DNA from: Candidatus Cloacimonetes bacterium ADurb.Bin211
GTDB lineage: Bacteria; Cloacimonadota; Cloacimonadia; Cloacimonadales; Cloacimonadaceae
Assembly: GCA_002070045.1 (NCBI GenBank)
Contig: MWCN01000160.1
Location: 1 to 34,232 of the forward strand
DNA length: 34,232 nucleotides
Reading direction: 5' to 3'
Shown here: one piece after another, positions 6,523-32,574 of the stretch
How the letters are laid out: the number at the start of each line of letters is the position of its first letter
Position numbering within the stretch: the stretch's first letter is position 1
Translations under genes and position numbers: made by a program
The notes under the pieces: model-generated
What the model was told of the DNA's origin: nothing
Database searches by the model: none
Seen by the model: only the letters and a program-made list of their open reading frames with translations

Positions 6523-6557
6523 CTATTTAAAATCCTAAATAATATTTGAGGATAACT

Positions 6558-9500
6558 TTGGATAAAATACAGTCTCAGGCTTTAGCCGAAAACCTGGCAC
6601 AAACACAGGTAAAAGAAATTGTTCTCTCACCTGAAAGTCAGTGGTTATTAAAGCAAAGTGCCAATTATTTTGGTATACAACAGAGAACTAAACAATTTTT
6701 AGAAGAATTCCATCATCCTTATGCTAATTGGGATGAGGTGCTATTTTTGCTAAGGCAGAGCGTGGTTGGAGATTTATGGTTCTATCTTCAGTTATCAGAA
6801 AGAGATAAGGCTCTATCCATTATCCTTGGAATCTTTGAAGAAATCTTTCAAAAAGCAGAGAAAAAAGAAACCAGACAGAAAGCTATAACCGAATTTCTAT
6901 CTTTCGTAAGTGCTTTAGCCAGTCAGGAACAGGTTCCTCAAATAGTACTTGAACATTGTCGGGAAATCTTAGAAAAATGGCATAAAGATTGCCCGAGTTT
7001 ATTTATTCCGCTTACGGGACAATGTTATAGCACATTTAAGCTTCTTTCCAACAGAATATCCCATCCAGAAAGATTACTTTCTCTATTAATATCTATCTAT
7101 CAATCTTCTCTGGAATTATGGAAATCCAGTTCTTCCATTGAGGAATGGTATGATAAATATGCTGATTTAATTACTCTAAGTCGCAGTTATCTTACGCGAA
7201 CCATAGGCACCAGATTTTATAACCAGCAATTAAACCGATTGGGCAAGATTAAAAGTATTGAGGAATTAAAAGAGATTCCTTCTTTTACCGAGATAGCTGT
7301 CCGTCATAGAGATTTGCTGGCTAAATTCCCAAGTTTACAAGAGAAAATTCATTATATCTTTTATCTTTTGAGTTTACCCACTATGAGTGGTCTCACTGAC
7401 CACCTTTTATGGGATTTTAACCGGATCTTAGGACATTTAAGAGAAACCTTGTCTGCTAAAGATATAAATGCACTCTTAGATTCTGTTTTTGAATACCTGG
7501 CTGAATATAGGGATGTGCATACCAGTATTGTGTTGGATTGTGTCCTCACTATTGGCAAAGCAGTGCTTGACCCTCAAGAGCCAGAACTGGGAAAAAGATT
7601 AATACGGAAGATAATAGACCTTGGTTTTATTCCGCCCGGGGAAATTAAAATTAACCGTGACTGGCAAATTATTGCCAATAAAAACCACATCAAAAATATA
7701 CGGGTCTGGCTTCAGCTTATCAGTATTGATCCATCATTTTGCAAGGATTTATTAGCTGCTTTAACCATATCTATAATCCAACAGGGAATCTTTGTTTCTG
7801 ATACCGATCTGTTCCAGAAAGATGTATCCTCATTTCTAAATAGCGAGATCAAACCTATTTATGTGCAAGCTAAGCATCTCCTAAGGCTTCTACCTGTCTT
7901 CTATAATGAGATTGGAGCAGAAGGTGAAATAAGGGATTTAAGCACTGAAATTGATGAACTTTGCTATCGTAAAGATTTATTGATGCACTTTGTCCGCAAA
8001 CAGGTGCACACTGAAAGTAATAATACTCAGATTCAGCTTTTACAAGAGATTTTAAATTACTGGATAGACCTTGACCCGAATCATCTGAAAGGATTGGTAC
8101 CTGAGGATGTGGAAAAATATATTAGTCATCCTGATGAACTTAATCAGAAACAGCATCAAGCAGTTAATAAGTTTTTAAACGACCATAACTTAGATGTAAA
8201 GACCCTCCTTAATCAATCCTGGCAGAGTATTGCTCCATTTTTCAAATCAATCAAAAATGAAGATATCCCCCTTAAAAAATTAGAATTGCTCTGCCGTATT
8301 TATTATTTACTATTGGATAAATATCAGCTGGACCCTTATGATATAACAAAGTTTCTCAGCCGATATAACTGGTTTGATCAGAAGGAACAACTTCGTTTGA
8401 AACAGAGCCTGGGAAGAAATGACTATGATAGCAGCATCCATCAGATGCTTAATTATATAGGCAGATTAAATAAAATCGTGCTTGACCCTCAACCCACTCA
8501 AGCCTGGGAAAATATATACTATAAAAGACATATTGCTGCTGGCATTCCTTCTATGTATGGTCAATATAGAGAACCAAAATTAGAGGCTATGGGAATAATA
8601 TTCCGTCTGGAAAATTTGGTGGAAAGACTGATTGAAAAAAGTATCAAGCAGCTAAATCTGGAATATCTGACCGCTAAGACCCTCAAGCGTATTATACATA
8701 TTCTTGAATTATATGAATTAGGACTGACTCACGAAGGTTATTCAGTTAGTGCTTTTTCCAATGCACTGGAGATGTTAAAATCCAGTCAGCGTGTTGTCAG
8801 ACTTTCCTTAGACCAATATCTTGACCTCTTCAAACAGATAAAAGATAGTATCACTGATTTGATCAATGAACATTTTTATCGTTTCTATGAACAGGAACTT
8901 AGCCATTCTCCCGTCAAGGGAGTCCCAGGAAAGTATAAAAAACAAACCTACCAGCAGATGTTCGCTGAAGAATTTTTCCGTAAGCTACTGGGAAGCTCAT
9001 TTTTAGTCCAATCAATGGACAATTTTATCTCTCAAATCATCACATCTTTGAATTCTATGAAGACTATATTTGCCCCCGAAGACCTCACTAAAGTTATGAG
9101 TTATGACCCTGATTTGCTGTTTGTGCCGCTACATACAAATAATCGGCGTCTGGATAATCAGGTGCTTTTAGGAGCTAAAGCTTATTTCCTTAAAAAAATG
9201 ATTCAGTATGAATTCCCCATACCTGCGGGAATTGTTATTACTACAGAACTTTTCCGTGCTCGTAATATAATTAATGCTCATCCAGAGATTGAGAAGGAAC
9301 TGGATGAAAAAATCCGCTTCAATGTTAGTCGCATAGAAAATTATACTGGATTGGAATATGGCAATCCAGAAGCTCCTCTATTGCTATCCGTTCGTTCTGG
9401 AGCACCTATGAGTTTACCTGGAGCGATGAGCACTTTTCTCAATATCGGGATGAATGATGAGATTACTCTTAAACTAAGCACTATGCCTAATTTTGGATGG

Positions 9501-10625
9501 ACTGCCTGGGATTGTTATCGTCGCCTTTTACAAAGCTGGGGAATGGCATATGGTATAGACCGGGATGAATTTGATGCGGTTATGATTTCTTATAAACGTC
9601 GGTATAAAGTGCAGCTAAAGACTCAGTTTACACCAGAGCAAATGAGAGATATGTGCAATTCTTATAAAAAAGTTTTAGCACTTCATAAGGTTTCCTTTGA
9701 ACAGGATGTGTTCCTTCAGCTTAAACAGGCTATAAATCATGTTTTAGATTCCTGGAACACGGATAGAGCACGTTTATATCGTCAAAAACTTCAGATTGCA
9801 GATGATTGGGGCACAGCCGTTCTTATCCAGAAAATGATTTTAGGTAATATCAGTCTTGATTCTGGCACGGGTGTAGCATTCACTTATGCAGATTGGAGTA
9901 AAGAACCAGGAATAACTCTGAATGGTGATTTTACCTTATGCAGTCAAGGAGAAGATGTAGTAGCAGGATTGGTGTATACCCTACCTATATCCGAACAGCA
10001 AAGGAAACTATCCAAATCACCTGTGCCGGTTTCTCTGGAAAAAGACTTCCCGGAAATTTATGCTCGCCTATTATCTCTAGCTCGCCAATTGATAAAAGAA
10101 CGAGGCTATCCTCATCAAGAGATAGAGTTCACTTTTGAGGGACCTCGTAAAGAGCAATTGTATATTCTGCAAACTCGGAATCAACTGATAACCAAAGTTA
10201 AACAATATACTGTGTTCAATGTACCAAAGCGTGAACTGAAACTATTAGGCAATGGAATTGGAGTGGGGAAGGGTGTCCTGAATGGAATCATTGTCATTTC
10301 TCGTAAAGATATAGATGAACTCAAAGATATGAATTTACCTTTAATTCTAGTTAAACCGGATACAGTTCCTGAGGATATGGAACTATTATTTGACTGTCAG
10401 GGCTTGCTAACTTCTCGTGGTGGTGTCACTTCTCATGCTGCGGTAACAGCCGTCCGCCTGGGAATTATAGGTGTAGTTAATTGTCGTCAACTCAAGGTAT
10501 TAGAAGAAGAAAATATTTGTCGTATCGGAGATTATATACTGCATCCCGGCGAAAAAATAGCTATTGATGCTTCCAGTGGTTCAATCTATCTTGGACATTA
10601 CCCGGTTGAAACCATACCTGGTTAA
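6558..10625 (+). CDS. Dikinase-like protein: large helical N-terminus plus PPDK ATP-grasp and phosphohistidine domains
   Basis: The protein is 1355 residues from a TTG start; a GAGGA ribosome site sits 5 bases upstream, and there is no in-frame ATG before the upstream stop. Residues 1 to about 865 are predominantly helical and resemble no family I know. From about 868 the protein follows pyruvate phosphate dikinase closely: the ATP-grasp module has SVRSGAPMSLPGAMSTFLNI, later DDWGTAV, SGTGVAFT, and SQGEDVVAGL. In the GEF stretch of PPDK the Glu is Asp (NGDF). The phosphohistidine module has TSRGGVTSHAAV with His about 1293. It ends there: the C-terminal PEP/pyruvate-binding barrel is absent, so it cannot be an ordinary PPDK or PEP synthase. 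It probably passes ATP phosphate through the histidine to another acceptor, perhaps bound by the N-terminal region (inference). A GAPDH-like gene follows after 35 bases. Confidence 0.8.
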   Translation: MDKIQSQALAENLAQTQVKEIVLSPESQWLLKQSANYFGIQQRTKQFLEEFHHPYANWDEVLFLLRQSVVGDLWFYLQLSERDKALSIILGIFEEIFQKAEKKETRQKAITEFLSFVSALASQEQVPQIVLEHCREILEKWHKDCPSLFIPLTGQCYSTFKLLSNRISHPERLLSLLISIYQSSLELWKSSSSIEEWYDKYADLITLSRSYLTRTIGTRFYNQQLNRLGKIKSIEELKEIPSFTEIAVRHRDLLAKFPSLQEKIHYIFYLLSLPTMSGLTDHLLWDFNRILGHLRETLSAKDINALLDSVFEYLAEYRDVHTSIVLDCVLTIGKAVLDPQEPELGKRLIRKIIDLGFIPPGEIKINRDWQIIANKNHIKNIRVWLQLISIDPSFCKDLLAALTISIIQQGIFVSDTDLFQKDVSSFLNSEIKPIYVQAKHLLRLLPVFYNEIGAEGEIRDLSTEIDELCYRKDLLMHFVRKQVHTESNNTQIQLLQEILNYWIDLDPNHLKGLVPEDVEKYISHPDELNQKQHQAVNKFLNDHNLDVKTLLNQSWQSIAPFFKSIKNEDIPLKKLELLCRIYYLLLDKYQLDPYDITKFLSRYNWFDQKEQLRLKQSLGRNDYDSSIHQMLNYIGRLNKIVLDPQPTQAWENIYYKRHIAAGIPSMYGQYREPKLEAMGIIFRLENLVERLIEKSIKQLNLEYLTAKTLKRIIHILELYELGLTHEGYSVSAFSNALEMLKSSQRVVRLSLDQYLDLFKQIKDSITDLINEHFYRFYEQELSHSPVKGVPGKYKKQTYQQMFAEEFFRKLLGSSFLVQSMDNFISQIITSLNSMKTIFAPEDLTKVMSYDPDLLFVPLHTNNRRLDNQVLLGAKAYFLKKMIQYEFPIPAGIVITTELFRARNIINAHPEIEKELDEKIRFNVSRIENYTGLEYGNPEAPLLLSVRSGAPMSLPGAMSTFLNIGMNDEITLKLSTMPNFGWTAWDCYRRLLQSWGMAYGIDRDEFDAVMISYKRRYKVQLKTQFTPEQMRDMCNSYKKVLALHKVSFEQDVFLQLKQAINHVLDSWNTDRARLYRQKLQIADDWGTAVLIQKMILGNISLDSGTGVAFTYADWSKEPGITLNGDFTLCSQGEDVVAGLVYTLPISEQQRKLSKSPVPVSLEKDFPEIYARLLSLARQLIKERGYPHQEIEFTFEGPRKEQLYILQTRNQLITKVKQYTVFNVPKRELKLLGNGIGVGKGVLNGIIVISRKDIDELKDMNLPLILVKPDTVPEDMELLFDCQGLLTSRGGVTSHAAVTAVRLGIIGVVNCRQLKVLEEENICRIGDYILHPGEKIAIDASSGSIYLGHYPVETIPG

Positions 10626-10660
10626 AATATTATATCATAAAAATAGATAAGGAGAAAAAA

Positions 10661-11914
10661 ATGAACATCCAACCTAAAGGTCAAAAGCTACTTGGAATCA
10701 ATGGATTGGGCAGAATAGGCAAGCTTCTGCTCTGGAATCAGATTCATCTGCGTCATTTTGATGGCATTGTCATTAATTTTGGCAGAGAAGTAGGAAAAAG
10801 CCTGGATGACCTGATTCAGGTTATGGAAATGGATTCCACCTATGGAAGTATCCACAAATTCCTGTATGGAATAGTTGGAAAAAAGGCAGAAATTAAGGTT
10901 ATAGACCCGGAAAAACCTGTTCTGGAGATTGAAGGAATGCCTATCACGGTATTACGTACCGCTCGTGACCCTAAGGATATTAACTGGTTAGAAGAAGGCG
11001 TGCGTATAGTAGTTGATTGCACTGGTAATTTTTTAGACCCCAATATCTCTCCAGAAAAAGGAGTGCCCTGCCTGAGAGGTCATTTAGCAGCAGGGGCTCT
11101 CAAGGTCATTTGTTCAGCTCCTTTCAAAAGTAAGGCAGCGGTGATGGAAGATAATCCAGATACTATAACGATGATTTATGGTATTAATCATCTCAATTAC
11201 GACCCTCAAAAACATCATATAATCTCAGCTGCAAGCTGCACTACTACCGGTCTGGCTCATATGATAAAACCACTTCTGGAACATAAAGAAACTGCCAGTA
11301 TAATGACTGCATCTATGAGCACTATTCATGCTGCAACCAATTCTCAAAGTATACTGGATTCTGTCCCTAAGGCTGGAGCTTCCGATCTTCGTAAAACTAG
11401 AAGTGTGCTGAATAATATCATCCTTTCTACTACTGGTGTATCTAAGGCTCTGGAACTGGTGATGCCAGAAATTAAAAATATAGGTTTTATGGCTGATTCT
11501 GTGCGAATTCCTACTAACACTGTTTCTCTTATTAACCTTAATGTAACTTTCCACGCAGAACTAAATGAACTGGGACAACCCAATATCACCAGAAAACTAA
11601 TCAATGACATTTATAAACAAGCTGCAGAGGGTCCACAAAATGGATTATTGATGTATACTGAAAGACAAAATGTATCAGCTGATATGATTGGCACGATGGC
11701 CGCAGTTGTGATAGAAGCAAATGAGACTCACACCCGCACGAGTTTTATTGCAGTTCCACCTAAAACCCTGAAAGAATTAGGTGCACCATATGATAAAAGT
11801 GTCTATATGCCAGTAACTCACGCTAAAATCTTTGGCTGGTATGATAATGAGCTCGGTTCATACACCAATTGTCTTTCTCGCCTGGTAAATTATATAGATG
11901 AGACCACGCCTTGA
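10661..11914 (+). CDS. Divergent glyceraldehyde-3-phosphate dehydrogenase paralogue
   Basis: The protein has 417 residues, against about 335 for canonical GAPDH and 332 for the second copy at 23436. The Rossmann motif GLGRIG (15-20) and the catalytic pair C193 (SAASCTTTGLA) and H223 (STIHAATNSQ) are retained, as is the C-terminal WYDNE. Differences are notable. The Asp that grips the NAD ribose in canonical GAPDH (AINDI) is replaced in VINFGREVG. The Asn after SCTT is Thr, and insertions lie around 60-90, 125-145 and 365-385. A dehydrogenase acting through a thioester is likely, but cofactor choice (perhaps NADP) and substrate may have changed. A strong AAGGAG site precedes the ATG. It is 35 bases downstream of the dikinase-like gene and probably co-transcribed. 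The superfamily call is secure; the exact reaction is not. Confidence 0.85.
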   Translation: MNIQPKGQKLLGINGLGRIGKLLLWNQIHLRHFDGIVINFGREVGKSLDDLIQVMEMDSTYGSIHKFLYGIVGKKAEIKVIDPEKPVLEIEGMPITVLRTARDPKDINWLEEGVRIVVDCTGNFLDPNISPEKGVPCLRGHLAAGALKVICSAPFKSKAAVMEDNPDTITMIYGINHLNYDPQKHHIISAASCTTTGLAHMIKPLLEHKETASIMTASMSTIHAATNSQSILDSVPKAGASDLRKTRSVLNNIILSTTGVSKALELVMPEIKNIGFMADSVRIPTNTVSLINLNVTFHAELNELGQPNITRKLINDIYKQAAEGPQNGLLMYTERQNVSADMIGTMAAVVIEANETHTRTSFIAVPPKTLKELGAPYDKSVYMPVTHAKIFGWYDNELGSYTNCLSRLVNYIDETTP

Positions 11915-14355: not shown

Positions 14356-17300
14356 ATGCCCCTAAAAAATTATATATATTTATCTCTGATACTTATATTA
14401 TCGGCTCCAATTTTTCTAATGGCTGAAAACTTTTTTAATATCATTAACACCTCAGACAACTCTATCCAAATTCACTTTGAGCTCCCTTCTTGGTCTATGG
14501 AAAGAAATGAAGCTAATAATCTATCCAGCGTTAAAATAGATGATGTTCCCTATCTTTTTCTGGAAGAAACTGAAACTCTTCCTGTGTTTAGTACTATGAT
14601 TGCCATTCCTTGCCAGGGTGGAGTAAGTATTCAGATAAACTCAACTCAACAAAATATTCAGAATCAAATTAAACTTAATTTTGACTCGTTACTTAGTTCT
14701 GAGAAAGCAAACGGAAGATATAATGAAGAATTATATCCTGCTAGTTCAGTAGTTATTTCAGAACCTCAGATTATGCGTGATTTTCGTATTGTCACTTTAA
14801 ATATCTATCCCTTCCAGTATGACCAGAGTAAACAAACTTTATCCATCTTAGAATCAATTGATATTCAATTAAATTATGATAATCAACCTTCTATCAATGA
14901 AATAGATCCTCCCTTGAATTTATCTCCTGCCTTTGCTAATATTTATCCCGCTTTGATATTGAATTATGAACAGTTTATTACTCGTGATGAAATAACTTAT
15001 TCTCGTCCTAGAATGTTAGTTATATATGGAAATTATTCAGAAACTACATATCAAACTCAGGTTAATAACTATATTACCTGGAAAAAACAGAAAGGTTATT
15101 TGATTAATGCTGTCAGTACTGCAATCACAGGAACTAATACCAATTCCATAAAAAATTACATCCAGAGCCAGTATGATAATCCTAATACTCGTCCCGATTA
15201 TATTGTCCTCATTGGTGATACATCTGGTAATATGTCAATCCCCAGTTATAGTAGTTATATTGATTACTACTACACCTGGTTAGCTGGAAATGATAATCTG
15301 GGCGATGCAGCTATAGGACGAATATCCGTGGAGACCACAGCCGATATGGTAAATTATATGGCAAAGGTCTATGCTCTGGAACAAGATATAAATATTAGCA
15401 ATGCTTCCTGGCTTAATAGAATGGTCCTCGTTGGAGATTCTGGAAGTTCTGGTATTTCTACTATTTATACCAATAGGTATATACACGACCATTCCTTGAT
15501 GATTAATCCTTCCTATACTTACACTGAAGTTTATGGAACTTCTCCTTCTTCCACCACTATCAATAATGCTATTAATCAAGGAGTGGTTTTTTATAATTAT
15601 CGTGGATACATAGGAATGAGCGGATGGCCCAGTACTATCAATCAACTAAATAACGGTTATAAGCTATTTCATAGTGTGTTCATTACCTGTAATACTGGTA
15701 CCTTTAATAGTGGAACGAGTACTACTGAAGCAGTAGTCCGCTTTGGAACTGCCGCAACTTTAGGAGGTGCTATAACCTCTATCGGGATGGCTACTTCCTC
15801 AACTCATACACCTATGAATAACTGTCTGGATGTGGGAATCTTCCATAGCATTTATCCTCTTGGAATGCGTAATATGAGCGAAGCATTGCTTTATGCTAAA
15901 CTCTATCTTTATGCTGTTTATGGTGTCAGTCATCCCACTCAGGCTAATAATTTCGCTGGCTATTGCAATCTTATAGGAGACCCTACTGCTGCAGTTTATG
16001 TGGGTATTCCTTCCACATTTACTTGCAATGCACCTACTTCCATTGCAGCTGGAACTTCCAATCTGGAAATAACAGTTCTTAATAACTCTAATCAAATAGT
16101 TTCAGGTGCTTCTGTAGTATTAAGTAATGCCAACGGACAGCAAGCTTTAGCGTTCACCAATGCTCAAGGTAAAGCCTATCTGGAATTTGCTTCTAATCTT
16201 TCTGGTTCTTTAACCTTAACTATAAATAAAGATGATTTTAAACCTCTAGTCTCAACTATTAATATCGCATCTACTGGGGGAATAGTCTATAATAATGTTG
16301 AGATTAACGATAATATAGGGGGAAATGGCAATGGTCTGATAGATGCAGGAGAGCCTATTGATTTGTTTGTGTTTCTGAAAAATACATCCACTCAAGTTTT
16401 GAATCCTTCTGGCAATGCCTATTGTTCTGATCCCTATATTACCTTAATCAATGCGGATAGAATAGAATACAATAACATCAATCCTCAAGCTATCGGTGCC
16501 AATATAGAACCTATAATCATCCAAATTGCACCCGATTGCCCCGATCAACATCAATTTTCTTTAAAATTCGTTGCTGAAACAACAGCAGGTAGCTGGGAAG
16601 TATTTATTCCCTTTACTGTGCATAATGGTAATTTAAATATAACCTCTTATACTTTTATCGGTGCTCCCAACAACTGTATTTCTCCGGGTGATAATTTACC
16701 TATGTCTATCAATCTATCAAATGTTGGTTCACTAGCTTTAAATGGTATAAATGCAAGACTCCGCTCTTATGATACTTACTTTGTGGTATTAGATTCTACT
16801 GGAACTTATGCTTCCATCCCGGTTGGTTCAGCTGTTGCTAATAATTCTGACACTTTTAGCGTTTTTGCTCGCAGTACCTGTATTGATGGTATGGTTATAC
16901 CTCTGGAACTTTATCTCTACAACTCTGTTGGTTATAAGGAAACTATCTATTTTACCGTCACCATTGGACAAACAACAGTACACGATCCATTAGGACAGGA
17001 TGCTTACGGATATTTTATCTTTGATCAGGGGGACACTGGTTATACTCAATGTCCAACCTATAATTGGATTGGGATAGCACCTGCCGAAGGAGGTAATGGA
17101 ATTCTATTAGCACTTACTGATCCGGGAAATTCAAGTGATGAAGGAGATCAGACTTCAGCTGTAGCTATAACTACGGTAAATCTTCCCTTCCCTTTTAAAT
17201 TCTATGGGATAGAATACTCTCGAGCTTCCATTTGTTCAAATGGGTTCATTGCTTTCGGCCAAACTCAAGATGCGGATTGGCGTAACTGGAGAATCCCTGA

Positions 17301-20300
17301 TGCAGGTGGTCCAAGTCCTATGGTTGCTGTCTTTTGGGATGATTTAACTCTTGGAACTGGAAGTGGCGTCTATACTTATTATAATTCCACAAGTCACTAT
17401 TATGTGGTGGAATGGTATCATTTGATTTCCGGCTATAATAATAGCTCTCTGGAAACCTTTGAAGCTATTTTATATGACCCGGTCTATTATCCTACTGCTA
17501 CTGGTGATGGTCAAATAAAATTACAATATCAACAATTTAATAATATAGACATAGGTTCTGGTGATACTTTCCCACATGGCAATTATTGCACTATCGGAAT
17601 TGAAGATCATACGGAAACTATAGGTTTGGAATACACTTTCAATAACACTTATCCAACTGCAGCTGCCGCTCTTTCCAATAATTCAGCCCTGTTTATTACT
17701 ACTCGTCCTATTTTGCCTGACTTTCCTTATATAGTATTAGAACAGGTATCAGTGATAGATCCTAACGATAATCACTATTTAGAACCAGGAGAAAATGCCG
17801 ATCTTTCCATTCGTCTGGGAAATCGTGGTTTAGTTGATGCTTCTGGTGTCTCTGCAGTCATCACCTGTTCTGATTCTTATGTAACTATCCTGAATTCCAG
17901 TGCTAACTATGGAACTATACCAGCTCAAAGCAGTGTCTATCCTCAAACTAATTACTCTTTATTTGTATCACCTGATTGTCCTGCCCATCATCTAATCATT
18001 TTCACTATAAATATTACTTCTGATACATCAAACTGGACTTATAATTTCCAGCTGGAAGTAGTCATTCCAGAACTTGGTTTTAATAATATGACCATCAATG
18101 ATAGTGGTGGAAATAGTAATGGCATATTAGACCCGGGAGAAACCGTTACTGTTAATATTCATATTGTAAATATAGGACTGATTCCAACTCCTCCCGGAAC
18201 TGCTACTTTATCCTGTAATAATTCTGGAATTACAATTATTAATGGGTCAAATAGCTTCCCTGTACTGGCAGTCGGTGCTTTTGAACCTTTATCTTATACA
18301 ATAAGCTCTGCTTCCAGTATTAGTAGTGGAACATTAATTAACCTGATATTTAATGCTGTAGCAGGAACTACTACAGCTCAACATACTGAAATTGTAGAAG
18401 TGGGAGCACCTATTCCCATAACGATAGGAACTGGAACAGGGACTCAATCCTATCCCCTGGATAGATATTATAATTATTGTGCTCATGAAGCTATTTATTT
18501 AGCCAACGAAGTTGGCACTGCTTGTACTATTAAAAACCTCGCTTATTACAAAGCCAGTGGAACTGATGTCAGTCCTATTCAGCCAGTAACCATATATATG
18601 AAAAATACCACTGCTTCCTCTTTAAGTTCTGGAAATTATAGCACCAGCGGTTACACTCAAGTTTATAGTGGTTCTTTCCCTAATGACTCCAACCCTGGCT
18701 GGATGGAAGTCACTCTCTCTCCTATGTTTGTCTATGATGGAGTTTCCAATCTTTCTATCTTAATCGTTAAGGGCTATCAACAATGGATATCAAATTATCC
18801 TATGTGGACCTATACTTCTACCGGTACCACCCGGGCAAGACAAAATAGAAGCGATTCTTCTGCCCCTACAAATTTGTCTTCAACAAACAATCTTCCCAAT
18901 TTAAGGCTAAAAATATTCCCGCAGGTACAGAGTTTACTGCCTCCTCAAAATTTTACTGCTATTCCCAGTCATCAATCTGTTTATCTTTCCTGGTCTGCTC
19001 CAGTGTCAGGAAATCCAACCGCTTATAAAATATTCAGGAATTCAGTTTCAATAGCTAATGTAACCACTTTAAATTATACCGATTTCTCTGTTACCGATGG
19101 AGTTTCTTATTCTTATTATATTATTGCCGTCTATTCCAATGGAGAATCCTCTCCTACTCCTACTTTAACTGTTATACCTAATACCTATCCTCCTACCAAT
19201 CTTACTGCTATAGCGGGAAACGCAATGGTGTCTCTAAGCTGGAATTCCGCGGAAGGTCGTAGCAGTTCAGGAGATAATACTAAAGAAAGATTGATTAGCA
19301 GTTATAGAGTTTATCGTAATGGATCTGCAATTCAGGATGTTACGGAAAATACTTATCAGGATACGGGACTAGTTAATGGCATCACATATTCTTATTATGT
19401 AACAACTATTTATACTAACCCAGCAGGAGAATCAGCTCCTTCTAACACCGTGGAAGCCACTCCAGTTATGGTCTCAACTGTAGTTTTAGGAACTGGCACC
19501 TCGGTTAGCACAGGGGCGCAAAACAGTCCTTTAAATATCTGCAATAATAGTGTTCATGGCCAATCTGTCTATACGGCTGCCGAATTGAATGCTGCAGGAC
19601 TAGTTGGTCCCTTAAGAATCACTGCCTTAGGATTTTATGTGGTTACAACTCCAGCTCTGCCTTTACCTCAATTTGTAGTACGAATGAAACATACTACCGC
19701 CACGGATGCGTCAAACTGGCATACTGCAGAAAATCTTTTAACCACTTACTCCAATCCCTCTTATATGCCAATTGCTGGCGGATTTGATATGATGACCTTT
19801 AATACTCCTTTTGAATGGAATGGAACAGATAATATTTTAGTGGACACTGCTTTCAGTCTGGTAGAAACTGCAAGTAACACCGGTACTCTGCAATATACTC
19901 CAATAACCAATGGCTATCGTTTCACCTGGGATAATACCGTAGACCAGACTAATATCTTTACTGGAGGAATGGTTGTAGCTCGCAGATATAACATTCAAAT
20001 ATATCTGCAACCTATTTTACACGCTCCCGATATAACAGTTTTCCCACTTTCTTTGAATTTCGGCGAAATTGAAGTCGGTACCTCAGCAATTCAAAACTTT
20101 ACGATCCAGAATAACGGTGATGTAAATCTTACCGGGACCATCACTACTCCGCCGGAGTATTCAATTTCTCCTTCCGATATAAGGTCTTCAATTGCCTCTT
20201 CCACCAAAAAAATTACTAATTTGGAAAGAAATACAATTGACTTTAATATTTCTCCTGGAAATTCCTCTATTTTCAACATAACTTTTGCTCCTCCCGCGGT

Positions 20301-20604
20301 AGGAATCTACAATGGTGAAGTAGAAATCGCCAGTAATGACCCCGAGGAGAGCTTGATAAATATCTCAGTATCCGGAGCAGGATTTATATATAACCTCATT
20401 CAACCGGTGGTAAATATCTCACTAATAACGGAGGGAACCGTTATCTCCTGGCAATCTGTACCCTATGCCACCTCTTATCAAATCTGGACCTCTGATGATC
20501 CCTATGGAACTTACACTCTTTTACAAACCATAACTGAGATTAGTTATCTGGATACTCGTAATTTATCTAAAGTCTTTTATAAGGTTATTGCTATCCGAAA
20601 TTAA
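14356..20604 (+). CDS. Giant secreted gingipain-family (C25-like) multidomain protein
   Basis: The protein has 2082 residues and a signal peptide (about 1-23, cleavage after LMA). Residues 25-200 resemble the C25 propeptide and about 215-560 the gingipain-type catalytic domain. Cys445 in FITCNTGTFN matches the nucleophile, but where gingipains have the His of GHG this protein reads NYRGYIGMSGW (414-424), so activity is uncertain. Next come several beta-sandwich repeats marked by GNGNGLIDAGE or SNGILDPGE (about 655 and 1255). A nidogen-like module spans about 895-1120. Two related jelly-roll-like modules cover about 1353-1525 and 1708-1892. Two fibronectin III-like domains lie at about 1527-1710, a HYDIN/ASPM-like domain (LNFGEIEVGTSAIQNF) at about 1893-2010, and a final fibronectin-like domain ends in FYKVIAIRN. 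Such C-terminal domains often serve export or anchoring in this group of bacteria. An AAGGAA site precedes the ATG. Surface adhesion or polymer degradation is inferred. Confidence 0.75.
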   Translation: MPLKNYIYLSLILILSAPIFLMAENFFNIINTSDNSIQIHFELPSWSMERNEANNLSSVKIDDVPYLFLEETETLPVFSTMIAIPCQGGVSIQINSTQQNIQNQIKLNFDSLLSSEKANGRYNEELYPASSVVISEPQIMRDFRIVTLNIYPFQYDQSKQTLSILESIDIQLNYDNQPSINEIDPPLNLSPAFANIYPALILNYEQFITRDEITYSRPRMLVIYGNYSETTYQTQVNNYITWKKQKGYLINAVSTAITGTNTNSIKNYIQSQYDNPNTRPDYIVLIGDTSGNMSIPSYSSYIDYYYTWLAGNDNLGDAAIGRISVETTADMVNYMAKVYALEQDINISNASWLNRMVLVGDSGSSGISTIYTNRYIHDHSLMINPSYTYTEVYGTSPSSTTINNAINQGVVFYNYRGYIGMSGWPSTINQLNNGYKLFHSVFITCNTGTFNSGTSTTEAVVRFGTAATLGGAITSIGMATSSTHTPMNNCLDVGIFHSIYPLGMRNMSEALLYAKLYLYAVYGVSHPTQANNFAGYCNLIGDPTAAVYVGIPSTFTCNAPTSIAAGTSNLEITVLNNSNQIVSGASVVLSNANGQQALAFTNAQGKAYLEFASNLSGSLTLTINKDDFKPLVSTINIASTGGIVYNNVEINDNIGGNGNGLIDAGEPIDLFVFLKNTSTQVLNPSGNAYCSDPYITLINADRIEYNNINPQAIGANIEPIIIQIAPDCPDQHQFSLKFVAETTAGSWEVFIPFTVHNGNLNITSYTFIGAPNNCISPGDNLPMSINLSNVGSLALNGINARLRSYDTYFVVLDSTGTYASIPVGSAVANNSDTFSVFARSTCIDGMVIPLELYLYNSVGYKETIYFTVTIGQTTVHDPLGQDAYGYFIFDQGDTGYTQCPTYNWIGIAPAEGGNGILLALTDPGNSSDEGDQTSAVAITTVNLPFPFKFYGIEYSRASICSNGFIAFGQTQDADWRNWRIPDAGGPSPMVAVFWDDLTLGTGSGVYTYYNSTSHYYVVEWYHLISGYNNSSLETFEAILYDPVYYPTATGDGQIKLQYQQFNNIDIGSGDTFPHGNYCTIGIEDHTETIGLEYTFNNTYPTAAAALSNNSALFITTRPILPDFPYIVLEQVSVIDPNDNHYLEPGENADLSIRLGNRGLVDASGVSAVITCSDSYVTILNSSANYGTIPAQSSVYPQTNYSLFVSPDCPAHHLIIFTINITSDTSNWTYNFQLEVVIPELGFNNMTINDSGGNSNGILDPGETVTVNIHIVNIGLIPTPPGTATLSCNNSGITIINGSNSFPVLAVGAFEPLSYTISSASSISSGTLINLIFNAVAGTTTAQHTEIVEVGAPIPITIGTGTGTQSYPLDRYYNYCAHEAIYLANEVGTACTIKNLAYYKASGTDVSPIQPVTIYMKNTTASSLSSGNYSTSGYTQVYSGSFPNDSNPGWMEVTLSPMFVYDGVSNLSILIVKGYQQWISNYPMWTYTSTGTTRARQNRSDSSAPTNLSSTNNLPNLRLKIFPQVQSLLPPQNFTAIPSHQSVYLSWSAPVSGNPTAYKIFRNSVSIANVTTLNYTDFSVTDGVSYSYYIIAVYSNGESSPTPTLTVIPNTYPPTNLTAIAGNAMVSLSWNSAEGRSSSGDNTKERLISSYRVYRNGSAIQDVTENTYQDTGLVNGITYSYYVTTIYTNPAGESAPSNTVEATPVMVSTVVLGTGTSVSTGAQNSPLNICNNSVHGQSVYTAAELNAAGLVGPLRITALGFYVVTTPALPLPQFVVRMKHTTATDASNWHTAENLLTTYSNPSYMPIAGGFDMMTFNTPFEWNGTDNILVDTAFSLVETASNTGTLQYTPITNGYRFTWDNTVDQTNIFTGGMVVARRYNIQIYLQPILHAPDITVFPLSLNFGEIEVGTSAIQNFTIQNNGDVNLTGTITTPPEYSISPSDIRSSIASSTKKITNLERNTIDFNISPGNSSIFNITFAPPAVGIYNGEVEIASNDPEESLINISVSGAGFIYNLIQPVVNISLITEGTVISWQSVPYATSYQIWTSDDPYGTYTLLQTITEISYLDTRNLSKVFYKVIAIRN

Positions 20605-20951: not shown

Positions 20952-22382
20952 ATGAATATCATTGTGTTTTTATGCATTCTGATAGCAATCTTAAGTATTG
21001 TAGGGATTATTATCTTATTACGAAAAAATCAAGGATTGTCTGATTTGAAAGAATCCTTTAATCACCAATCTGTACTAATAGAATCCTTTGAACGGAATCT
21101 TAGAGATGATATCCAGCGTTTGCGTACTGACTTATCATCATTGCAATCGGACACCCGAAAAGAATTGATAAATATATTAAATCAACAAAATGAAGCTATC
21201 AGCAAAGAAAATAGAAGTAATCGGGAAGAAATATCATCTTCTCTAACGAAAATGAATCAACAGATGAATGAAGATGCAGCTAAAAACCGGAATGAATTGA
21301 GCAATTCTTTGCGAGAATTATCCGACTCCTTATCTCGTAGACTTCAAGAACTGGTTAGCACAGAACAAACTCAATTTGATTCATTAAAAACGGCAATGGA
21401 AGGAAAAATGGAACAGATTCGTACCAGTAATGAGAACAAATTGGAAGAAATGCGAAAAACAGTTGATGAGAAGTTGCAGGACACTTTGGAAAAACGCTTA
21501 AGCGCATCTTTTCAGCAGGTAAGTGAAAGATTGGAACAGGTATATAAGGGTTTAGGTGAAATGCAGAATCTGGCTAATGGTGTGGGTGATTTGAAAAAAG
21601 TTCTTTCCAATGTTAAAATTAGAGGAATGCAAGGAGAATATCAGCTGGAAGCTATTTTAGACCAGATATTAAGTCCAGGTCAATATGTAAAGAACTGGAA
21701 ACCGGATAAACATAAAAATGAGGTAGTGGAATTTGCTATTTGTTTACCTGGAAAAGAGGATACTAAAGAAAAGGTTTATCTGCCTATAGATGCAAAATTT
21801 CCTCTCGCTGATTATAATACCCTGGTTGATGCCTGGGATAAAGGTGATTTAGCCGCTGTAGAAACTGCCAGAGCAGCCCTTAGAGATAGAATATTGAAAT
21901 GTGCTAAAGATATCCAGAAAAAATATATTTCTCCACCCTTGACCACAGATTTTGCTTTGCTCTTTCTTCCTATAGAAGGTCTATATGCAGAAGTTTTACG
22001 AGATCCCAATCTCTTTGATGAATTGCAGAAATATCATATAGTAGCAGTTGGTCCTACAACTATTTCAGCTATTTTAAACAGTCTACAATTAGGATTTCGC
22101 ACTTTAGCCATTCAGCAACGTTCCAATGAAGTTTGGAAAATTCTTGGAGCTATAAAGACTGATTTTGCCAGATTTGGTGATTTACTGGATAAAACCCAGA
22201 AAAAGTTGCAAGAGGCGTCTAACACCATTGAAGATGCCAGCCATCGTAGTCGTCAAATTCAGAAAAAGCTTAAAAGTGTGGAAGAACTTCCAATTGAAGA
22301 AAGTTCAGTGATATTAGAATTAACAGATGAAAAAGATTATGAGGTACAAATGCAAGAAGATATGGATGAGGATTTAACTTGA
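20952..22382 (+). CDS. rmuC: RmuC family DNA recombination protein
   Basis: This 476-residue protein has the RmuC layout. One N-terminal membrane helix (about 3-23) is followed by a long coiled coil (about 28-205) rich in Asn, Glu and Ser heptads. The RmuC domain (PF02646), about 215-400, includes VKIRGMQGEYQLEAIL, YLPIDAKFPLADY and FALLFLPIEGLYAEVL. A second coiled coil and an acidic tail end the protein. RmuC is known to limit DNA inversions at short inverted repeats and is predicted to be a restriction-endonuclease-fold nuclease. An AAGGAG site precedes the ATG. The stop codon lies 62 bases before the aldolase gene, so some read-through into glycolytic genes is possible, though the products are unrelated. 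Recognition is firm; biochemical action is poorly known for the whole family. Confidence 0.92.
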   Translation: MNIIVFLCILIAILSIVGIIILLRKNQGLSDLKESFNHQSVLIESFERNLRDDIQRLRTDLSSLQSDTRKELINILNQQNEAISKENRSNREEISSSLTKMNQQMNEDAAKNRNELSNSLRELSDSLSRRLQELVSTEQTQFDSLKTAMEGKMEQIRTSNENKLEEMRKTVDEKLQDTLEKRLSASFQQVSERLEQVYKGLGEMQNLANGVGDLKKVLSNVKIRGMQGEYQLEAILDQILSPGQYVKNWKPDKHKNEVVEFAICLPGKEDTKEKVYLPIDAKFPLADYNTLVDAWDKGDLAAVETARAALRDRILKCAKDIQKKYISPPLTTDFALLFLPIEGLYAEVLRDPNLFDELQKYHIVAVGPTTISAILNSLQLGFRTLAIQQRSNEVWKILGAIKTDFARFGDLLDKTQKKLQEASNTIEDASHRSRQIQKKLKSVEELPIEESSVILELTDEKDYEVQMQEDMDEDLT

Positions 22383-28888: not shown

Positions 28889-30217
28889 ATGCAACCCTAT
28901 TTAATAAATGGCGGAATAATTTTGACTTTTAATCCAGAACTGCCCTTACTGGAAGATTATTCCTTACTGGTAAACGATGGGAAAATAAACCAAATCTTGA
29001 AAGATACAGAGATAGAATCTTTACCCTATGAGAGATTGGATGCCCAAGGAAAAATTATAATGCCTGGCTTAATCAACGCTCATCATCATTTTTATAGCAC
29101 TTTAGTAACAGGCTTGACTAAAGCAACTCCCGCTAAAGATTTTCTGGGGGTGCTGGAAAATCTATGGTGGCGTTTAGATAAACAACTTACTGCAGAAGAT
29201 ATTTATATCAGTGCTTTAATTTCTGCAATGAATGCTATTAGAAAAGGCTGCACTACAATCTTTGATCATCATTCCAGTCCTGGCACAATCAAAGGTTCTT
29301 TATCTCAAATTGCTAAAGCCATTCAGGAAAGTGGAATTCGTGCTTCTCTTTGCTATGAGGTTTCCGATAGAGATGGAATAGATAAATGCGAAGAAGGTAT
29401 TCTGGAAAATGTGACCTGGTTGCAACAAGTCTCTCAGGAACAAAATCCCAGACTTAAAGGACTTTTTGGAATGCATGCAGCATTTACCCTTTCTGATGAT
29501 TCTTTGCAGGAAATAGCAGATTGGGTGGATAAACTCAACTGTGGTATTCACATTCATATAGCTGAAGGGGAGTATGATGAACTTTTTAATATTCAGCACT
29601 ATGGGCAAAGAGTGATTGAAAGACTCTGTGATTTTGACCTCCTGAATTGTCATAGTCTTCTGGCACATGGAGTTCATCTAAATGCCAGAGAAATGATGTT
29701 GATAGAAGAAGCTGGTGCTGCTGTTATTACAAATCCTCAATCCAACTTGAATAATGCTGTAGGAATAGCAGATATATGCAAAATGGATGAATTAGGTATC
29801 ACTGTAGGATTAGGAACAGATGCTATGACCACTAATATGCTGGAAGAACTGAGAATTGGAATCTGGGCACAACATCTGAAACAAAACAATCCTTCTGCAG
29901 GTTTTAAAGAAATGACTAAAACCCTACTTTTCAATAATCCTTTAATTGCTCAAAAATACTGGGGAGAATATTTTGGCACTATAGCTGAAGGAGCACCAGC
30001 TGATATTATTCTGATAGATTATGAGCCTCCTACTCCCTTAAATGAAGAAAACTGGATTGGACATATAGTTAATGGCATCTCTCAAGCTAATGTAAATACT
30101 ACTATTTGTGCTGGAGAGATTCTAATGTGGAATGGTCAATTGATGTTACCTGTAGATGAGAATGAAGTTCGGAAAAGAGGTTGTGAACTTGCCAGTGCTT
30201 TATGGGAAAGATTTTAA
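28889..30217 (+). CDS. ssnA: SsnA-type aminohydrolase
   Basis: This 442-residue amidohydrolase-superfamily protein has the same length as I recall for E. coli SsnA. MPGLINAHHHFYST carries the metal HxH (H65, H67). Later metal and catalytic motifs are FGMHAAFTLS, HIHIAEGE and GLGTDAMTTN (the Asp of the superfamily). The LWWRLDKQL stretch after the HxH motif is typical of SsnA/guanine-deaminase-like enzymes. SsnA occurs with ygeY and molybdenum hydroxylase genes in selenium-linked purine catabolism. Its exact substrate is debated; it is presumed to hydrolyse or deaminate a purine-derived ring or amidine. It is the first gene of a tight cluster (10 bases to the next). A weak AGGGA site precedes the ATG. 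Confidence 0.9.
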   Translation: MQPYLINGGIILTFNPELPLLEDYSLLVNDGKINQILKDTEIESLPYERLDAQGKIIMPGLINAHHHFYSTLVTGLTKATPAKDFLGVLENLWWRLDKQLTAEDIYISALISAMNAIRKGCTTIFDHHSSPGTIKGSLSQIAKAIQESGIRASLCYEVSDRDGIDKCEEGILENVTWLQQVSQEQNPRLKGLFGMHAAFTLSDDSLQEIADWVDKLNCGIHIHIAEGEYDELFNIQHYGQRVIERLCDFDLLNCHSLLAHGVHLNAREMMLIEEAGAAVITNPQSNLNNAVGIADICKMDELGITVGLGTDAMTTNMLEELRIGIWAQHLKQNNPSAGFKEMTKTLLFNNPLIAQKYWGEYFGTIAEGAPADIILIDYEPPTPLNEENWIGHIVNGISQANVNTTICAGEILMWNGQLMLPVDENEVRKRGCELASALWERF

Positions 30218-30226
30218 GGAAGATAA

Positions 30227-31420
30227 ATGTATCTAAAGATTTTAGAAAAAGCCCAAGAATATGAATCTGAAAACATTCGTTACCTTACAGATATGATTCG
30301 CATACCTGCTTTTTCCACTAAAGAAAAAGAATTAGCAGAATATATCTTGCAGGAAATGCAAAAAGCAGGATTTGATGAAGCTTTTATAGACCCTCTGGGA
30401 AATGTTATAGGAAAAATAGGTAATGGGAAAAATATAATTGCTTTTGATGCTCATATAGATACCGTCTATCCAGGAGACCTTTCTTTATGGAATTTTAACC
30501 CCTTTGAACCTCAGGTAAAAGATGGAATGATTTGGGGAAGAGGAGCTGTTGACCAGGAAGGTGGAATGGCTTCAATGCTTACAGCTGCTCGCATTATAAA
30601 AGAGTTAAATCTAAATTCAAAGTTTAGCATTTATTTTATGGGCACAGTTATGGAAGAAGATTGTGATGGACTTTGCTGGCAGTATATCATAAGAGAAGAT
30701 AAAATAGTGCCTGAATTGGTAGTCATCACGGAACCCACCAATATGAATATATATCGTGGACATCGTGGCAGGATGGAAATGAAAGTTTTTGTTCAGGGTC
30801 GTTCCTGTCACGCTTCAGCTCCAGAAAGAGGAGTTAATGCTATTTATAAAATTAGTCGTATTGCTCTGGAAATAGAGAAGCTTAATGAACATTTACGCTA
30901 TGATGACTTTCTGGGAAAGGGTACTATTGCGGCTACGGAAGTTTATTTTACAGGACCTTCACAATGTGCTATTCCCGATAGTGCCAATCTGCATCTAGAC
31001 CGCAGACTCACCCAGGGTGAAAACAAAGAAATTGCAGTAGAAGAAGTTAAAGAAGCCTGTCAATTGGCTGGAGAATCAGATGCACGCATCCAGCTTTTAA
31101 CCTATAGTGAACCTTCATATACGGGATTGGTCTATCCAACCGAAAAATATTATCCTACCTGGGTTACTCCCGAGGATTCCCCCTATCTTAAAATTGCTGA
31201 GTCAGTCTATAACCAAACTTTAGGGCGAAAACCTATAATTGATAAATGGACATTTTCCACCAATGGTGTTGCCATTGCAGGAATGCACCATATACCCTGT
31301 CTTGGTTTAGGTCCTGGCAATGAAGTTTATGCTCATGCCCCTAATGAAGCTACTCCTATTATCCATCTAACCGAAGCTGCAGCTTTTTATGCCGCTTTAA
31401 TCTATGCTTTAAATCAATGA
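30227..31420 (+). CDS. ygeY: YgeY-type M20 family hydrolase (selenium metabolism-linked)
   Basis: This 397-residue protein is of the M20 metallopeptidase/deacylase family. Metal-site motifs are AFDAHIDTV (H76, D78), WGRGAVDQEGG (D109), MEEDCDG (catalytic E143 and metal E144), TEPTNMNIYRGHRGRMEM and, near the end, an HAPNEATP stretch with the last His ligand. The long IYRGHRGRMEM segment and conserved cysteines fit the YgeY subgroup rather than ArgE or DapE. YgeY is part of the anaerobic purine-degradation cluster of E. coli and gut anaerobes, where it is thought to cut an amide of a ring-opened intermediate. A GGAAGAT site precedes the ATG. The next gene overlaps its stop by 4 bases (ATGA). 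Confidence 0.88.
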   Translation: MYLKILEKAQEYESENIRYLTDMIRIPAFSTKEKELAEYILQEMQKAGFDEAFIDPLGNVIGKIGNGKNIIAFDAHIDTVYPGDLSLWNFNPFEPQVKDGMIWGRGAVDQEGGMASMLTAARIIKELNLNSKFSIYFMGTVMEEDCDGLCWQYIIREDKIVPELVVITEPTNMNIYRGHRGRMEMKVFVQGRSCHASAPERGVNAIYKISRIALEIEKLNEHLRYDDFLGKGTIAATEVYFTGPSQCAIPDSANLHLDRRLTQGENKEIAVEEVKEACQLAGESDARIQLLTYSEPSYTGLVYPTEKYYPTWVTPEDSPYLKIAESVYNQTLGRKPIIDKWTFSTNGVAIAGMHHIPCLGLGPGNEVYAHAPNEATPIIHLTEAAAFYAALIYALNQ

Positions 31421-32574
31421 GTTTTTTTTATAAGTGGCGCTGTACCAATTGTGGCACTGAATATGAATTGGATGAGGTCCATTATCTTTGCCCTCAATGT
31501 AGCAAAAAGTGGATTGCTTGTTCTCCTCTAATAGGAATTTTAGAAGCTACATTTGATTATCCAGCGATTAAACAGGAATGGGATATGAAACCTAATCCCA
31601 GATTATTCAGTGTTCTTGAGGAAAAATTCTATCCTCCTCTTCCTGTTGGTAATACACCCATTTTTAAACCGGAAAGACTAAGTCAAACCCTGAATTTGCC
31701 TAATTTGTTTATTAAAAATGACGCGCTTAATCCTAGCGGTTCTTTAAAAGACCGTGCCTCCGAATTAGTGGTGGCAGATGCCATTAGATTAGGAATAGAT
31801 AGAATTGTCTGTGCTTCCACTGGAAATGCTGCTTCCTCTCTTGCCTGTATTTGTGCAGCTGCAGGAAAAGAAGCTATAATATTCGTTCCCCAATCCATTC
31901 CAGAGGGAAAACTTATTCAGATTAAGGTGCATGGAGCTAAGCTTTATACTGTATCTGGAACCTATGACGATGCCTTCAATTCTGCCCTTGCTTATTCTGC
32001 TAATAATGATTGTTTAAATAGAAACACCGCATTTAATCCGCTTACTATTGAAGGAAAAAAGTCTGCAGGAATAGAAATATTTCTTCAATTAAAGGATATT
32101 CCTGATTGGATTATAATACCTGTTGGCGATGGTGTTATTCTGGGAGGTATTTATAAAGCTTTCATAGACTTGAAATCTGCTGGTATAATAGAGAAATTAC
32201 CTAAACTTCTTTCCGTTCAATCAGAAAGCTCTGATGCTATCACTTCCTACTGGGAAACAGGAACCTATCATAACGCCAATCATCCTCACACTATAGCTGA
32301 TTCAATCTCAGTTAAAACTCCCGCTAATGCACACTGGGCAGTTGAAGCTTTGTACCAAACGCAAGGAAAATCAATCCGTGTTTCCGATGATGAAATACTT
32401 TCAGACCAGAAATATCTGGCACAAACGACTGGAATCTTTGCTGAACCTTCTTCTGCAGCAGTTTTCTCAGGATTGAAAAAGGCTTTAACCCAGCAATGGA
32501 TTAAACCAGAAGAGAAGGTTGTTCTGCTCATTACAGGAACTGGCTTAAAGGATATCAATGCCGCTAGATTATAA
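31417..32574 (+). CDS. Threonine-synthase-like PLP enzyme with zinc ribbon
   Basis: This 385-residue fold-type II PLP enzyme begins with a zinc ribbon (C9/C12 in CTNC and C25/C28 in CPQC), seen in a subset of threonine synthases. The PLP lysine is K111 in NPSGSLKDRAS. STGNAASSLACI and PVGDGVILGGIYKAF are the phosphate-binding and glycine-rich loops. By sequence it would be called threonine synthase (phosphohomoserine to threonine). Its setting between ygeY and amidohydrolase genes, with 4-base and 17-base overlaps, instead suggests an ammonia-lyase step of purine degradation, the position held by YgeX (diaminopropionate ammonia-lyase) in E. coli. The sequence is clearly not YgeX itself. The fold is certain; the substrate is inferred from context only. 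Confidence 0.8.
   Translation: MSFFYKWRCTNCGTEYELDEVHYLCPQCSKKWIACSPLIGILEATFDYPAIKQEWDMKPNPRLFSVLEEKFYPPLPVGNTPIFKPERLSQTLNLPNLFIKNDALNPSGSLKDRASELVVADAIRLGIDRIVCASTGNAASSLACICAAAGKEAIIFVPQSIPEGKLIQIKVHGAKLYTVSGTYDDAFNSALAYSANNDCLNRNTAFNPLTIEGKKSAGIEIFLQLKDIPDWIIIPVGDGVILGGIYKAFIDLKSAGIIEKLPKLLSVQSESSDAITSYWETGTYHNANHPHTIADSISVKTPANAHWAVEALYQTQGKSIRVSDDEILSDQKYLAQTTGIFAEPSSAAVFSGLKKALTQQWIKPEEKVVLLITGTGLKDINAARL

Follow-up and report, generated by a model that had tools for sequence, protein, structure and literature searches.

The window analysed here, meaning the whole stretch of 34,232 nucleotides from contig MWCN01000160.1 of Candidatus Cloacimonetes bacterium ADurb.Bin211, carries a gene for a dikinase that resembles pyruvate phosphate dikinase (PPDK) in its C-terminal part and lacks the phosphoenolpyruvate (PEP)/pyruvate barrel. 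We refer to this protein as PPDKL. It is followed on the same strand, across a gap of 35 nucleotides, by a gene for a divergent glyceraldehyde-3-phosphate dehydrogenase (GAPDH), here called GAPDHL. From the comparison of homologous loci, PPDKL and its GAPDH are best explained as a conserved two-gene metabolic module. The features are collected in Table 1. An initial annotation of the DNA had described a barrel-less dikinase; that description holds, with the protein size corrected to 1,355 amino acids and the part without a match to ∼862 residues (not 865). The mechanically called open reading frame (ORF) allows a start four codons earlier, at position 6546. Promoter-like matches did not exceed the frequency found in shuffled sequence.

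Dikinase half of PPDKL

Comparison with solved structures confines the likeness to PPDK to residues 866-1347, and the Pfam matches of the protein are two, with no others found: the PPDK_N domain (residues 871-1213, 2.1e-25) and the PEP-utilizers mobile domain (1263-1341, 2.1e-13). Residues of the ATP site and the phosphohistidine were assigned by alignment to the PPDK of C. symbiosum (1KBL). The PPDK ATP site, which we take to comprise K22, R92, D321/E323, Q335 and R337 (with D321 corresponding to a Glu in PPDKL), is represented by K874, R946, E1188, E1190, Q1205 and R1207, all of them invariant across 76 aligned homologues. The predicted phospho-carrier His1293 is kept in each of the 74 aligned homologue rows that reach its position. 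The PPDK-like motifs reported initially are indeed present, with SVRSGAPMSLPG at residues 944-955, SQGEDVVAGL at 1129-1138 and TSHAAV at 1291-1296. Among the protein family models, TIGR01828 (PPDK) matches PPDKL at 3.3e-102 and 343 bits, below the 843 bits required for a full-length equivalog, and the PEP synthase models reach 61-72 bits. The hidden Markov model search returned no PF02896 domain, the protein terminates right after the His domain, and no barrel was found by fold. The ATP-grasp and phosphohistidine modules are thus kept with high fidelity, and the PEP/pyruvate barrel is missing, both as originally proposed. Judged by these residues and domains, PPDKL would be an intact dikinase engine devoid of the pyruvate site.

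N-terminal region

The 862 residues that precede the dikinase half showed no consistent Pfam family across 58 diverse members, with no match in the window protein and sporadic weak ones in other members, and a profile of the region gave weak matches to unrelated helical proteins among the solved structures, none of them convincing. An AlphaFold2 model built from a 58-row alignment (mean predicted local distance difference test (pLDDT) of 87; predicted template modelling score (pTM) of 0.79) places more than 40 helices and a single clear beta hairpin at residues 650-671. The region is therefore as lacking in recognizable relatives as first described, and not purely helical. A Foldseek search of the model against the PDB retrieved generic helical-repeat matches only (best E of 9e-4; TM-score of 0.08-0.20 relative to query length). 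The conserved core of residues 318-700, modelled alone, reached a pLDDT of 90 and a pTM of 0.86, and its fold search returned nothing under E = 1. A PEP/pyruvate barrel hidden in this region found no support in the sequence profile, Pfam, AlphaFold or fold searches, the region being predicted as helical except for the one hairpin.

Two clusters of invariant residues stand out. The one comprises D415, D417, F419, Q420, EIGAEGE (451-457), R459, D466, R471, D473, H477, R480, K481, H484 and N488 within residues 415-488; the other (KRH, A, GIPSMYG, Y, E and K, within residues 656-674) is located on the loop of the hairpin, where the predicted confidence is low. Charged and partly flexible, these clusters appear to resemble an active or binding site. 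A short N-terminal peptide (S6, A8, L9, N12, L13, T16) is likewise invariant and of low confidence in the model.

Linkage to GAPDH

The gene-neighbourhood survey suggested by the initial annotation yielded what is now the main functional clue, missed by that annotation. The survey comprised 81 loci (80 plus the window), of which 7 were uninformative because the contig ends there. A GAPDH homologue adjoins PPDKL in 68 of the 74 informative loci, lies within three genes in 2 and is not found nearby in 4. The 68 include one locus (L027) in which the GAPDH-like gene is masked by an overlapping spurious ORF and was recovered by tblastn, and another (L101) in which a 90-amino-acid ORF on the opposite strand alone intervenes. 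The GAPDH gene is positioned downstream on the same strand in 42 loci (L027 included), an arrangement found in most lineages and in places with an overlap of a few bases between the genes. It is upstream and divergent in 19, representing a clade of Bacteroidales, and upstream on the same strand in 7, usually with a second GAPDH downstream as well. Other neighbour families do not recur in more than 7 of the 81 loci, and polA, LepA, isocitrate dehydrogenase, citrate synthase and RlmN, considered as conserved partners, proved to be lineage-local.

The partner itself is of three types: the distinctive GAPDHL of 414-419 amino acids, canonical GapA (∼335 amino acids), and a third type with the motif HPxTNNQ. 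GAPDHL is the partner in most lineages, and the third type occurs additionally in others. The dikinase tree indicates that canonical GapA took over from the 417-residue type in a large Bacteroidales clade; the genomes searched from that clade contained no GAPDHL, and at another position they carry a second GAPDH, similar to it in length. Adjacency to GAPDH has thus been kept while both the type of GAPDH and the gene order changed, and this carries more weight as evidence than mere conservation of gene order. The functional link between PPDKL and GAPDH is well supported.

Individual loci show further variation. A Lentimicrobium genome (L084) has no GAPDH adjacent to PPDKL and encodes GAPDHL on another contig. 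An upstream GAPDH paralogue at L076:8978-9976 keeps the Cys and His (GTCTGNC, LHPY) and has the usual TNxQ replaced by LAAQ. A metagenome-assembled genome (MAG) labelled Chloroflexi (L051:362-7898) has a single dikinase surrounded by three GAPDH genes or gene fragments: one lies upstream, one of the 417-residue type downstream, and one is canonical and convergent.

GAPDHL of the window and its relatives keep the catalytic Cys193 and His223 together with the phosphate-binding surroundings (TxxQ, TG, RxPT, WYDNE) in 19 of 19 members. The match to TIGR01534 is at 302.9 bits, short of the NCBIfam equivalog cut-off of 367.2. Where NAD-dependent GAPDHs carry N-D after the second strand, GAPDHL has N-x-G-R-x-x-G, possibly reflecting a preference for NADP.

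Table 1. Features of the PPDKL-GAPDHL locus, in window coordinates
Feature	Position	Strand	Details
GAGG ribosome-binding-like site, 5' of the TTG start	6548..6551	+	direct sequence reading
PPDK-like dikinase without barrel (PPDKL)	6558..10625	+	TTG start, 1,355 amino acids plus stop
N-terminal region, residues 1-862	6558..9143	+	alpha-helical, no matching family or fold; may serve as acceptor or partner module
Residues 415-490	7800..8027	+	most conserved N-terminal stretch; D415, D417, F419, Q420, EIGAEGE, R459, H477, R480, K481, H484 invariant
Residues 650-674	8505..8579	+	beta hairpin with invariant loop KRH-A-GIPSMYG-Y-E-K; low pLDDT
PPDK_N ATP-grasp domain, residues 871-1213	9168..10196	+	Pfam; K874, R946, E1188, E1190, Q1205, R1207 kept
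PEP-utilizers mobile (phosphohistidine) domain, PF00391, residues 1263-1341	10344..10580	+	Pfam, 2.1e-13
His1293 codon of TSHA	10434..10436	+	alignment; predicted phospho-carrier, equivalent of PPDK catalytic His
AGGAG ribosome-binding-like site of the GAPDH-like gene	10650..10654	+	in 35-nucleotide intergenic gap
Divergent 417-amino-acid GAPDH (GAPDHL), partner	10661..11914	+	Cys193 (11237-11239) and His223 (11327-11329) invariant in clade

Co-occurrence and distribution

Among 125 Cloacimonadota genomes, the N-terminal profile of PPDKL matches 50 and the GAPDHL profile 53; both are present in 49 and neither in 71 (Fisher p of 8e-29, a value uncorrected for kinship and hence overstating independence). 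PPDKL is thus patchy within the phylum. The mismatches amount to one genome with PPDKL only and four with GAPDHL only. In two of the four (G049, G064), the 3' part of a dikinase lies directly upstream at the contig edge, and in the others (G090, G103) the contig is cut beside or inside the GAPDHL gene. The genome with PPDKL only (G022; L118, G022:C38:1500-7000) has a decayed dikinase, recognizable at residues 148-294 and 896-987 only, and no GAPDHL, which would represent joint loss of the pair. A family sample around one member of Geobacteraceae contained PPDKL in 9 of 48 genomes, 8 of them with GAPDHL and 1 without, the other 39 having neither (Fisher 2e-8, kinship again ignored and independence overstated). 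A broad phylum sample around one member of Bacteroidetes showed PPDKL in 1 of 396 genomes, the centre genome itself. Membrane pyrophosphatase, considered as a discriminating co-occurring gene, was uninformative, for it is nearly ubiquitous (113 of the 125 Cloacimonadota genomes).

Scanning of the named genomes gave at least 435 PPDKL loci. The 80 best, which were retained, involve Cloacimonadota, Bacteroidales, Lentimicrobium, Geobacteraceae, Desulfobacteraceae and the deltaproteobacterium NaphS2, as well as MAGs labelled Calditrichota, Chloroflexi, Chlorobiota and CSSED10-310; the closest named genome among them is that of Candidatus Syntrophosphaera thermopropionivorans. Orthologues exist in 13 of 13 genomes of the window's genus group (Candidatus Syntrophosphaera), in one as contig-edge pieces only, and proteins of the same architecture, 39-95% identical, occur in most of 41 relatives alongside ordinary PPDKs (∼906 amino acids). 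The source genome has one PF02896 barrel, located in a separate PPDK on contig 36. Local truncation of a complete PPDK, which the initial annotation had named as an outcome that would overturn its proposal, is excluded by that separate PPDK and by full-length orthologues of the same architecture across the genus group and in several other phyla. The ordinary PPDK of the source genome (G000:C36 / L001:700-900) has its frame interrupted between the halves, giving open frames of 313 and 635 amino acids; the split may be an assembly frameshift.

Phosphoglycerate kinase (PGK) also shows variation in the genomes considered. The PGKs of the window genome's order, of NaphS2 (G142) and one copy in G135 are very divergent (∼235-300 bits vs 480-570 elsewhere). 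The PGK of G021 (L112, G021:C1:920700-922150) has the motif NDAFGSWQAHSST at a position that is presumably a conserved Arg in canonical PGK. Tandem pairs of PGK occur in some genomes (G028, G084, G100).

Elsewhere in the window, positions 14356-20604 encode a protein of 2,082 amino acids in which a peptidase C25 domain of gingipain type and a propeptide precede Ig/fn3-like repeats. An RmuC-family protein is encoded at 20952-22382 (a weak NCBIfam match to ZorA is apparently spurious). Genes for SsnA, YgeY and a threonine-synthase-like protein stand in a row at 28889-32574, forming a selenium-metabolism-like cluster.

Discussion

The acceptor of PPDKL is probably other than pyruvate. The initial annotation had argued so from relatives without the barrel that use other acceptors; the recurrent GAPDH association points to the GAPDH/1,3-bisphosphoglycerate (1,3-BPG) step and away from its further suggestion of a generic phosphorelay. 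We tentatively propose a two-step dikinase in which His1293 relays phosphate to the carboxylate of 3-phosphoglycerate (3-PG) or away from it, paired with a dedicated GAPDH. Given the residues kept, the C-terminal half would phosphorylate His1293 with ATP and release AMP and pyrophosphate (PPi), or phosphate (Pi), in the manner of PPDK. The swivelling His domain would then hand its phosphate on, not to a pyruvate barrel, but to a site within the helical region at the N terminus. In the least certain step, the phosphate might be accepted by the carboxylate of 3-PG to supply 1,3-BPG to the partner GAPDH, or the sequence might run in reverse. The net reaction would be 3-PG + ATP (+ Pi) ⇌ 1,3-BPG + AMP + PPi (or Pi), which would make PPDKL a counterpart of PGK linked to AMP/PPi and dedicated to the neighbouring GAPDH. 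3-PG/1,3-BPG is the leading candidate because in known metabolism these two compounds mark the point of contact between GAPDH and a phosphotransferase, and because kinases are also paired with other reductases of GAPDH fold, whose acyl phosphate they make. Aspartokinase with aspartate-semialdehyde dehydrogenase, and N-acetylglutamate kinase with ArgC, are pairs of this kind. Cleavage of ATP to AMP and PPi provides about -46 kJ/mol, compared to about +49 for formation of 1,3-BPG; with PPi as co-product, the reaction would therefore be near equilibrium and possible in either direction, and it could exert a stronger pull on gluconeogenesis than PGK does.

Several points weigh against phosphoglycerate as the acceptor. 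All 26 of the named PPDKL genomes that were searched also encode PGK, which is not rarer in the PPDKL-positive Cloacimonadota. With no inverse pattern in the phylum, PPDKL as substitute for a missing PGK was rejected, and the module would have to be understood as an alternative to PGK, not a replacement. The assignment of 3-PG, or of any acceptor, is hypothetical. The N-terminal fold is without known relative, and the helical array predicted for it would equally suit protein binding. The sequence would not distinguish between PPi and Pi as co-product, and adjacency demonstrates a functional link, not a reaction.

The fit of a helical array to protein binding is part of the basis for the alternative that PPDKL is a protein-level regulator or organizer: the N-terminal region would dock the GAPDH tetramer, and the His-phosphate or the nucleotide state (ATP/AMP/PPi) would switch the GAPDH, possibly by phosphorylation. 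Large arrays of this type are the usual build of protein-binding modules, the invariant N-terminal peptide could be a docking segment, and the presence of three different GAPDH types beside PPDKL speaks for such a role. We nonetheless consider it rather unlikely, for the known dikinases of the superfamily phosphorylate polymers or small molecules, H, R, K and E are abundant among the invariant residues in the manner of a catalytic pocket, and the swap to canonical GapA would require an interface retained across ∼30% identity. Less probable again is the phosphorylation of some other three-carbon compound (e.g., glyceraldehyde, dihydroxyacetone, glycerate) to give a substrate for the adjacent GAPDH. 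It would agree with the GAPDH link and with the characterized barrel-less relatives, which phosphorylate hydroxyls (rifampin phosphotransferase (RPH), HpeHI, phenylphosphate synthase; PMC4844700, PMC12167813), yet no transporter, aldolase or dehydrogenase that would handle such a compound recurs in the neighbourhood.

That PPDKL represents a second PPDK, its pyruvate site relocated to a non-barrel fold, we regard as very unlikely. The ATP-grasp half is nearest to PPDK among the models searched, but an independent PPDK gene exists in this genome and in related ones, the genomic link is to GAPDH and not to pyruvate genes, and we know of no barrel-less PEP/pyruvate enzyme of this group. That PPDKL is an artefact of fusion or truncation, or a PPDK paralogue in decay, is scarcely credible: the single decayed copy in G022 is set against more than 70 loci with open, full-length conserved frames and invariant catalytic residues in several phyla.

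Should the phosphoglycerate reading apply, the module would constitute an unrecorded crossing of the step at the centre of glycolysis and gluconeogenesis, in which a dikinase acting on phosphoglycerate through an acceptor domain of new fold would, together with its own GAPDH, interconvert glyceraldehyde 3-phosphate and 3-PG via AMP/PPi (or AMP/Pi) and not ADP/ATP. We consider this possible, if doubtful. Central metabolism would gain a further choice of energy currency at a step regarded as universal, the estimates of ATP yield for these organisms would change, and the route would be one used by anaerobes at the energy limit. The pairing of PPDKL with GAPDH is found in many uncultured and a few cultured, mostly anaerobic lineages, including syntrophic propionate oxidizers, Geobacteraceae, NaphS2 and Bacteroidales.

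Comparison with known systems

PPDKL is a real and conserved dikinase family that has apparently escaped description. NCBIfam and Pfam contain no family model naming it, and a literature search brought up nothing on phosphoglycerate dikinases or on dikinases linked to GAPDH, within a partial coverage that leaves room for a description in subscription journals. With PPDK (TIGR01828; C. symbiosum 1KBL), PPDKL shares the order of ATP-grasp and then His domain and all ATP-site and His residues; it differs in lacking the C-terminal PF02896 barrel, in the 862 extra N-terminal residues and in the linkage to GAPDH. Its partner resembles type I GAPDH (TIGR01534) in the two-domain build and the catalytic Cys/His and phosphate-site residues, and is distinct in its 417 amino acids with insertions and in the N-x-G-R that replaces the NAD-selecting Asp region. 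Glucan water dikinase and phosphoglucan water dikinase combine C-terminal ATP-grasp and phosphohistidine modules with an N-terminal extension and have no barrel. By domain description PPDKL is alike in all three respects, and Pfam detects none of the starch- or carbohydrate-binding modules of glucan water dikinase in its N-terminal region. The RPH model (NF041857) matches PPDKL weakly and in the His domain only (22.6 bits vs a cut-off of 999), and RPH is not among the 50 best fold matches listed for the N-terminal region. RPH has its acceptor domain between the ATP-grasp and His domains, whereas in PPDKL the latter two are contiguous and the extra region is N-terminal; within the reach of the searches, the acceptor fold is not shared either. 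In mechanism class, PPDKL would nonetheless be like RPH, HpeHI, CreHI and PpsAB, each of which combines a swivelling His domain with an acceptor domain that has its own fold and a substrate other than pyruvate (PMC4844700, PMC12167813). RPH, HpeHI and their relatives form a large and little explored group of small-molecule dikinases with acceptor domains of their own (PMC4844700, PMC12167813). Dikinases have repeatedly acquired new acceptor domains, and those characterized proved to act on new substrates.

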